From contig NZ_JAXIVS010000006.1 in the NCBI RefSeq assembly GCF_034259325.1, positions 372,001-436,000 on the forward strand: a stretch of DNA of 64,000 bases, written 5' to 3'. This stretch comes from Hyalangium ruber. GTDB lineage: Bacteria > Myxococcota > Myxococcia > Myxococcales > Myxococcaceae. Positions 18,045 to 19,960 of this stretch are shown here, piece after piece. The notes beneath the pieces are model-generated. The model did not search any database. It had not been told where the DNA came from and worked only from the letters and a program-made list of their open reading frames with translations. Position 1 is the first letter of the stretch. The number at the start of each line of letters is the position of its first letter. A program made the position numbers and the translations under genes.

Positions 18045-18073
18045 TTGACCCGGTGGGAGGCGGCGCGTATTTT
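18045..18073 (+). promoter_or_regulatory. Predicted sigma-70-type promoter of the dcw operon
   Basis: TTGACC (18045-18050) and TATTTT (18068-18073) are separated by exactly 17 bp, in an otherwise very GC-rich region. Transcription would start around 18080, about 85 bases before the mraZ start codon. Confidence 0.7.
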
Positions 18074-18083
18074 CCGCGGCCCG

Positions 18084-18113
18084 GTGGCAAGAAGTGGCAA
18101 GCAGTGGCGAGAA
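18084..18113 (+). promoter_or_regulatory. Three 10-bp-phased GTGGC repeats, probable MraZ operator
   Basis: GTGGCAAGAA, GTGGCAAGCA and GTGGCGAGAA stand directly end to end. MraZ of other bacteria binds short direct repeats (TGGG-type in E. coli, AAAGTG-type in mycoplasmas) spaced one helical turn apart upstream of mraZ, and regulates its own operon. The copies here lie just downstream of the predicted -10 box, where a bound MraZ ring would block transcription. Identification rests on spacing, position and core similarity. Confidence 0.65.
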
Positions 18114-18163
18114 ATCCCATGCCGGGGTGGGGCGGTGGCTCGCTCTGAGGGGAAGCGCTCCGC

Positions 18164-18613
18164 GTGTTCCGAGGCGTCTATGAGCACCAGATCGACGCGA
18201 AGGGGCGCACCAGCCTCCCGGCCCGGCTGCGCGAGACGCTGGTGGGCGCCTACGACGAGCGGCTCATCCTCACCACGGCGTTGGATCCGTGCCTGCACGC
18301 CTACCCGGTGCGGGAGTGGGAGGCGCTGGAGAACGCGCTGGGCAAGCGCAACCCCATGGAGCCAGGGGTGAAGACGCTGATGCGCCTCTACGTGGCCAGC
18401 GCCCAGGAGTGCCCGCTCGACAAGATGGGGCGGGTGCTCATCCCGCCGCCGCTGCGCTCGCACGCGGGGCTGGAGAAGGACGTGGTGTGGGTGGGGATGG
18501 TGAAGGTGATGGAGGTTTGGAGCCGCGCTGGCTGGGCCAAGGCCCAGGAAGACGCGCGTGCCGCGGTGGACTCGGCGGACGTGGCGCGAGTGCTCGCGGA
18601 GCTTCGGCAGTAG
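18164..18613 (+). CDS. mraZ: MraZ, transcriptional regulator of the dcw cluster
   Basis: The 149-residue product has the two SpoVT-AbrB-like halves of MraZ, each with the DxxGR-type signature: [14 protein letters not shown] near the start and [13 protein letters not shown] around residue 87. The length is normal for the family (about 140-150). The start is GTG 18164 behind GAGGGG. MraZ forms rings that bind phased repeats upstream of its own gene, matching the repeats at 18084-18113. It is the first gene of the operon. Confidence 0.95.
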
Positions 18614-18659: not shown

Positions 18660-19043
18660 ATGAACTGGATGTCGGAGGCAAGGCAGAGCACCGAAGTGGT
18701 CGCCAGCGGCGACCGCGTGGAGACGTTGATGCTGGAGGGCGAGTTGGGCGAGCGGGAGCTGGCACAAGTGTCCGAGGAGCTCTTCCGCCGGCTGCAGCGC
18801 GGGCTGCGGCAGATGGTGCTCGACTTCAGCGAGGTGCCGCACCTGAACTACCGCGGCGTGAAGCTGCTGGTGGGCAGCGCCGAGTCGTTCCGCCGGGCCG
18901 GTGGCGACGTGAAGCTGGCGGGCCTCTCGCCGTACCTGGCCGCCATCTTCCGCGCGGCGGGCGCGCACGCCAGCTTCGAGATGTATCCGCACATGAACGA
19001 TGCGCGAGCCGCCTTCGCGCTCTCTCGGGCGCCGTTCGTCTAG
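18660..19043 (+). CDS. STAS-domain protein inserted between mraZ and rsmH
   Basis: A 127-residue protein from ATG 18660, behind a purine-rich GAGGGTGGGG site; the reading frame upstream of this ATG overlaps mraZ and is not used. It has the anti-sigma-factor-antagonist (STAS) fold pattern: a hydrophobic strand with [16 protein letters not shown] (residues about 57-72), followed by helix AESFRRAGG and strand VKLAGLS. At the site where SpoIIAA-type proteins have the phosphorylated Ser (DSxG), this protein has NYRG, so it should not be controlled by Ser phosphorylation. STAS proteins usually bind switch-kinases or lipids. Its place within dcw suggests a role in division or envelope control, but no partner kinase is visible in the window. 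Confidence 0.85.
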
Positions 19044-19054
19044 GACGCGCTTCC

Positions 19055-19960
19055 TTGGCCTTCAGCCACCAGACCGTCCTGCTGGAAGAGACGGTGCAGC
19101 TGCTGCAACCCGGAGCGGGCAAGGTGATCATCGACGGCACACTGGGTGGCGGTGGCCATACGGAGGCGCTCCTGGCTCGGGGCGCCACCGTCATTGGCGT
19201 GGACCGCGATCCGGTGGCGCTCGCCGCCGCCACCTCCCGGCTCGGTGCCCAGGAGCGCTTCCAGGCGCGCCAGGGCAACTTCGGGGAGCTGCTCCGGGTG
19301 GCCGCGGATGTGTTGCCGGTGGACGGGGTGCTGGTGGATCTGGGTGTGTCCTCGCCCCAGCTGGACGAGGCCGAGCGCGGCTTCTCCTTCAACAAGGACG
19401 GGCCGCTGGACATGCGCATGGGCGCCGAGGGGCGCACCGCCGCGGAGCTGATCGCCGAGGAGGACGAGCGAGAGCTGGCCCGCATCATCTATGAGCTGGG
19501 CGAGGAGTCCTTCTCGCGGCCCATCGCCCGCGAGCTCAAGCGCGCCCTGCCCACGCGCACGCTGGAGGCCGCCGAGGTCGTCAAGCGCGCGGTGCCGCGC
19601 AAGGCCTGGCCCAAGCGCATCCACGTGGCGACCAAGACGTTCCAGGCGCTGCGCATGGCCGTCAACGGCGAGCTGGAGGCGCTGGATGCGCTGCTGTCCG
19701 CGCTGCCCACGCTGCTCAAGGTGGGCGGGCGCGCGGCGGTCATCTCCTTCCACTCGCTCGAGGATCGCAAGGTGAAGGAGGCGTTCCGCGCGCTGGTGGG
19801 CGCCTGCCGCTGCCCGCCGGGCCTGCCGGTGTGCGCCTGCGGTGGCCAGGGCGACTTCGCCGCGGTCACGAAGAAGGCCGTCTCCGCCTCGGAGGTCGAG
19901 CTGGAGGCCAACCCCCGTTCTCGTAGCGCGCACCTGCGCGTAGTGGAGAAGATCCGATGA
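19055..19960 (+). CDS. rsmH: RsmH, 16S rRNA (cytosine-1402-N4)-methyltransferase
   Basis: A 301-residue SAM-dependent methyltransferase (MraW), using a TTG start at 19055, 11 bases after the STAS stop. Motifs seen: HQTVLLEE at the N-terminus, SAM-binding DGTLGGGGH (about residue 27), [15 protein letters not shown] and the C-terminal [12 protein letters not shown]. It methylates C1402 of 16S rRNA in the P site. Near the C-terminus a Cys cluster ([12 protein letters not shown]) may be a metal-binding site, as in many homologues. The stop overlaps ftsL by ATGA. Confidence 0.95.

Follow-up and report, generated by a model that had tools for sequence, protein, structure and literature searches.

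Three GTGGC units follow the predicted promoter of mraZ in the 64 kb stretch of Hyalangium ruber DNA analysed here (referred to as the window), and they very probably form an autoregulatory MraZ operator spanning the predicted site at which transcription of the dcw operon begins. A preliminary description of this DNA had proposed that the repeats might be the myxobacterial version of that operator. On sequence evidence the operator itself is very likely, but the notion of a special myxobacterial variant was not borne out; the array is an element of a known kind, real, well conserved and ordinary. Its recognition places the Myxococcota dcw promoter under E. coli-type regulator logic and provides a clean box consensus that can be used for annotating mraZ promoters. 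A broader proposition, for which we see about even chances, is that MraZ and its box rank among the most stable regulator-operator codes of bacteria, with the AAGTGGNNNN unit, repeated once per helical turn, being passed down alike in Myxococcota, the Clostridia phylum and Pseudomonadota and deleted together with the regulator gene in lineages that lose it, the promoter then being left unregulated. No description of MraZ boxes in Myxococcota was found in the literature searched, which mostly lacked subscription papers and is therefore no proof of absence.

The predicted mraZ promoter and its repeat array

The features described below all lie on the forward strand of the window. Direct reading and a promoter scan both gave a predicted -35 element, TTGACC (18045-18050), followed 17 bp further on by a predicted -10 element, TATTTT (18068-18073), which is retained in three genomes devoid of mraZ (see below). 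The scan returned a single promoter-like site between 17850 and 18200, the mean for shuffled sequences (n=50) being 0.0. TATTTT is followed by ten bases and then by GTGGCaagaaGTGGCaagcaGTGGCgagaa, which contains the GTGGC copies. The first box unit, CGGTGGCAAG (18082-18091, GTGGC at 18084-18088), has the highest score in the window with the matrix presented in the next section (29.6 at 18082) and probably coincides with the transcription start, predicted at about 18080. It is followed without interruption by the second unit, AAGTGGCAAG (18092-18101, GTGGC at 18094-18098), and the third, CAGTGGCGAG (18102-18111, GTGGC at 18104-18108). Direct reading thus confirmed the earlier statement that three GTGGC copies, starting at 18084, 18094 and 18104, stand in exact 10-bp steps after TTGACC-17-TATTTT. 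Their distance to mraZ, previously given as 50 bp, is correct for an end coordinate of 18113, but the final GTGGC copy stops 55 bp short of the mraZ GTG codon (18164). The array therefore presents the features by which MraZ boxes are recognised, namely a repeated GTG(G) core in three direct copies with a 10-bp period, and it sits where such boxes are expected, near the -10 element and the putative start site of the predicted promoter that serves mraZ and the dcw cluster.

An additional GTGGG (18053) is found inside the -35/-10 spacer, 31 bp ahead of box 1, and GTGG cores with this spacing are present in 41 of 150 Myxococcota upstream regions. It was rejected as a fourth box because the 31-bp spacing arises in at least two unrelated contexts, from the spacer GTGGG in the window and from the distance between box 3 and a ribosome-site-like AAGGTGG in Myxococcus.

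The gene behind the array, mraZ (18164-18613), encodes 149 aa from its GTG start and is supported by PF02381 (E 1.1e-30, in two stretches) and by NF001482 and TIGR00242, both above their cut-offs; its product is the expected ligand of the boxes. Residues 2-125 or 2-122 of the protein were matched to solved MraZ structures with E values of 1.5e-12 to 4.9e-12, the MraZ entries in the PDB including 9qlr, 9qlg, 9r4j, 9sx6, 9sz7, 1n0e and their kin. A STAS-domain gene (18660-19043; PF01740, E 1.9e-14; the ATG start is our choice) occupies the interval between mraZ and the next dcw gene, rsmH (mraW; 19055-19960; PF01795, E 4.8e-99; TIGR00006 above cut-off). The succession of mraZ, STAS gene and rsmH identifies the locus as the head of a dcw (division and cell wall) cluster. 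STAS relatives (tblastn, E<=1e-3, irrespective of position in the locus) were detected in 50 of the 93 loci longer than 2.4 kb (L001-L036, L038, L039, L045 and 11 others), and at the same threshold none was found in any of the five Sorangium loci.

Three GTGG cores with a 10-bp period occur once in the window, while shuffled sequences contained 0.05 on average, with at least one occurrence in 4 of 100 shuffles. Over the full 10.77 Mb of the genome, the same bare pattern had six matches against seven for a reversed control pattern; since it is not rarer than the control, the repeat taken alone is weak evidence, and it is its conservation over 150 Myxococcota upstream regions that marks it as real. 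The more elaborate pattern RGTGG-AGTGG-RGTGG has the mraZ site as its sole exact match in the 10.77 Mb, and three matches with at most one mismatch, versus four for the control. This search of the organism's own genome for an MraZ regulon thus revealed no second exact site, and because the near-matches do not exceed those of the reversed control, no further MraZ targets are claimed.

Conservation in Myxococcota and loss in one genus

MraZ was detected in 180 of the 195 Myxococcota genomes searched. The mraZ upstream regions were drawn from named genomes and from genomes of the phylum, with the gene start placed by profile. The 172 sequences comprised 168 with an mraZ match and four without (L167, L169, L170, L171). 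Before counting, one region with its gene start cut off (L164), one from a genome already represented (L168, same as L087) and 11 others whose last 150 bp equalled those of another region were removed, leaving 155, of which five were from Clostridia (L046-L050) and 150 were taken as Myxococcota. Two weak MraZ matches (L165, L166) were retained and scored as misses, and two of the 150 bear other record names, Proteobacteria for L035 and Comamonas for L011. The latter (BNCN01000001.1, titled Comamonas sp. KCTC 72670) encodes an MraZ 85% identical to that of the window behind a promoter almost identical to the Myxococcus promoter, and is probably a mislabelled myxobacterium.

The phased repeats that the preliminary description had proposed to look for upstream of other Myxococcota mraZ genes are indeed present. 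A strict GTGG-10-GTGG pair was found in 135 of the 150 distinct regions, compared with a mean of 1.67 and a maximum of 7 in shuffled sets (n=100), and in at least one genome of 25 of the 30 families sampled. Among the same regions, GTGG spacings of 9 and 11 bp were seen in one and five, respectively, and a spacing of 20 bp in 74. Three GTGG cores in phase occurred in 66/150 regions (shuffles, maximum 1), and at least three consecutive boxes with three of the four core letters in 140/150 when the register was fitted to maximise the score. Because the sequences are related, counts over the 150 regions are not independent, and a better guide is how widely the pair is distributed among families. 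Summed over the family table, the strict pair was present in 100 of 115 genomes, these being the best-scoring ones plus others hand-picked to cover genera; the genomes without it fall in families 3, 5, 11, 12, 16, 20, 29 and 31. The 15 regions devoid of a strict pair lacked it even within 200 bp, and most of them carry GTGT, GCGG, TTGG or ATGG at the 10-bp period.

In the fitted-register alignment each box holds 1.1-2.0 bits at each of its four core letters. The A that precedes the core holds 0.6 to 1.4 bits, and the A that comes after the fifth base holds 1.3 in boxes 1 and 2; these values are somewhat inflated by the register fitting. The fifth base itself is free in these two boxes. The share of T and G at the second and third place of the core is highest in box 2, and the third box tends towards GTGGATC in the other Myxococcota. 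Ahead of the array, all positions from -14 to -2 stay at or below 0.25 bits, and past its 3' end a weak signal of up to 0.55 bits persists where a fourth box would stand. A scoring matrix trained on the 150 regions, window included, gave a Myxococcota median of 26.1, a 5th percentile of 14.1 and a minimum of 2.9. As background, no score above 7.8 was obtained with 1000 random 180-mers from the window, and the highest score at an unrelated place in the window, on either strand, was 9.3. The promoter accompanies the boxes: TTGA[CT] lies 20-60 bp 5' of the first GTGG in 134/150 regions (taking the copy nearest 39 bp where there were several), at 38-42 bp in 87 of these, against 4/150 in a comparably wide control interval located 84-125 bp upstream.

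Both mraZ and the operator are absent from three of four searched genomes in one genus of the same family (G091-G093, corresponding to loci L167, L169 and L170; the sister genome G094 corresponds to L168). In these three genomes rsmH is present, no MraZ was found at E<=0.001, and tblastn detected no mraZ remnant near rsmH. The promoter is preserved nearly letter for letter up to ten bases past the -10 element (...TATTTTCCGCCGCCCG); beyond that point there are neither boxes nor mraZ, and the STAS gene comes next. The sister genome retains promoter and array, continuing with AAGTGGATCGGAGTGGCAAGGAGTGG and then mraZ. A single GTGG is left at the junction in the mraZ-less loci, where the three-box pattern had no match and the array scores (2.1, -1.5 and -2.0) fell within the shuffle range. 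About 96 bp beyond the junction a GTGG-10-GTGG pair occurs in L167 and GTGG-10-GCGG in L169 and L170, which was treated as chance because the matrix score is within the shuffle range.

The comparison of the three genomes with their sister shows that the array is tied to mraZ and that the promoter is retained on its own. The mraZ-less state probably derives from one shared deletion, which may have taken gene and operator in a single step; it therefore counts as one event and gives no sign of selection against an orphan operator. A lineage that has the promoter, and neither mraZ nor boxes, constitutes a natural experiment on the worth of MraZ control. Outside this genus, genome G180 has rsmH without an MraZ match, and the three-box pattern was not found at its locus (L171). 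Five others (G009, G017, G152, G164 and G181) had matches to neither MraZ nor rsmH, and perhaps are incomplete.

Probable mode of regulation and alternative explanations

For the window, we infer MraZ binding, its oligomeric form, the transcription start (about 18080) and the direction of control. MraZ bound to the boxes would lie across the transcription start, just past the -10 element, and would hinder RNA polymerase. In this way it would limit its own production as well as the expression of the downstream division and wall genes. The spacing of one unit per helical turn would fit adjacent subunits of the MraZ ring, an octamer according to the available text of PMC7761207. Repression is suggested by analogy with E. 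coli, where MraZ is reported to repress its own promoter (PMC8475190, PMC7761207) and the dcw cluster (PMC8475190). The direction is less certain than binding, since in Mycoplasma gallisepticum MraZ overexpression was accompanied by more FtsZ, as stated in the accessible part of PMC8475190. This observation could be accommodated if the array were an MraZ operator through which MraZ activates, or works both ways. Such a mode is nevertheless improbable for the window, given the repression seen at the E. coli promoter and the position of the array behind the -10 element as in E. coli, a place suited to blocking.

Other explanations would dispense with MraZ as the ligand. The possibility that the G-rich repeats fold into a G-quadruplex controlling the mraZ promoter derives from Staphylococcus aureus. 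For this species a 2025 paper (PMC11796246), in its available portion, reports such a structure in G-rich DNA lying downstream of the mraZ promoter, and notes that motifs able to form a G4 are conserved in other mraZ promoters. Upstream of E. coli mraZ there are four G-runs of at least three, and a looser two-G motif is present in 51 of the 150 Myxococcota array regions. Nonetheless, none of the 150 arrays contains four runs of at least three G, even though 135 of them keep the 10-bp phase, and across the whole 150 bp upstream four such runs are found in only 3/150 Myxococcota and in 3/35 regions of a second set (the best 30 of 79 genomes plus L046-L050, described below). The window array has GG runs only, its two-G motif beginning at 18124, behind the array. 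A quadruplex of three-G runs was therefore rejected for the Myxococcota, and the two-G form was set aside because it is non-specific in G-rich DNA, which makes this explanation very unlikely. That Myxococcota keep the phase without the three-G runs required by a classical quadruplex suggests instead that the conserved G-rich signal of mraZ promoters is the MraZ operator.

The array falls within the predicted leader or at its beginning, a location that would also be compatible with a function in RNA, as attenuator, riboswitch or binding site of an RNA-binding protein. The segment 18080-18180, though, folds worse than shuffled sequences (z +1.80, with 197 of 200 shuffles at least as good), an Rfam scan of the window matched zero families, and in two Clostridia regions (L047, L048) the phased pair lies ahead of the predicted transcript; a leader structure was rejected on the folding result, and the probability of this reading is minimal. 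Equally slight is the prospect that the array serves another regulator and is conserved at the dcw promoter by coincidence. MraZ binding at this site is a prediction from sequence, and a comparable repeat, with the core GTGTTA, serves C-proteins such as HsdC; still, the C-protein repeat, GTGTTAN5, has a period of 11 in the accessible text of PMC5282649, against 10 and a GTGGC core in the array, so that an HsdC-type operator was rejected. Moreover, the array accompanies mraZ across phyla and is missing from the genus members without mraZ, which argues against any other regulator and for the MraZ operator.

Comparison with MraZ operators of other bacteria

The preliminary description had also held that MraZ boxes in other phyla differ in their core sequences. 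This was not supported by a second set of 35 regions from the Clostridia phylum, made of 30 loci (the best 30 of 79 genomes with a match) and L046-L050. From this set L179 and L180 were excluded as repeats of L047 and L046; L202 and L203, whose printed stretches are identical, each entered the count. GTGG-10-GTGG is present in 34 of these 35 best-matching and added regions, and the Myxococcota matrix gave them a median of 26.3 (minimum -4.4), 31 of the 35 scoring above 10. The same GTGG unit and spacing occur in the E. coli K-12 mraZ promoter, TTGACA-18-TAAACT-7-GTGGGAAATTGTGGGGCAAAGTGGG (promoter elements chosen by eye), which scores 25.0, versus the Myxococcota's own median of 26.1. With the GTGG unit and its 10-bp period occurring in E. 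coli as well as in the Clostridia phylum, the idea of a core peculiar to myxobacteria is not supported.

Among the Clostridia regions, L047 and L048 have a MraZ-like box pair, 10 bp apart, inside the spacer that separates the -35-like element from the -10-like one. A pair that spans the -35-like element is found in L049 and L050; the position of the operator thus seems free, with the phase being kept. In many of the loci L184-L213 of the Clostridia phylum, AGGAAT followed by GAAT about 12-20 bases further on was noted by eye ahead of the boxes. This arrangement resembles the SigH promoter consensus; if it is one, SigH would read the dcw promoter of these bacteria.

Among the systems already described, the Mollicutes site bound by MraZ, (AAAGTGKN3)3 (Fisunov et al. 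2016, from the available text of PMC5282649), shares with the window the AAGTG core, the 10-bp unit and the three copies, but the base following GTG can be T there and is G in the window. In Burkholderia cenocepacia, according to the accessible part of PMC7761207, MraZ binds a 250-bp fragment of the mraZ promoter containing four 7-nt repeats with 3-nt spacers, located by sequence, which lie downstream of the -10 element, "as in E. coli", and cover the start site. That promoter, PmraBc, resembles the window in its period of 10 and in the placement of the repeats downstream of the -10 element, the start site being covered there; the repeats are four rather than three, and the likeness is one of layout. 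The placement just after the -10 element is therefore not special to the window either, being shared with both E. coli and B. cenocepacia. A further close counterpart is the E. coli dcw promoter, Pmra, which carries an MraZ operator (Eraso et al. 2014, as cited in the portions available of PMC7761207 and PMC8475190). Like the array of the window, that operator consists of three GTGG units in 10-bp steps, right after a sigma-70-type -10 element and before mraZ; the two differ in the fifth base of the unit, C in the window and G in E. coli, and in the gap between the -10 element and the first GTGG, 10 bp in the window and 7 in E. coli with the elements picked by eye.
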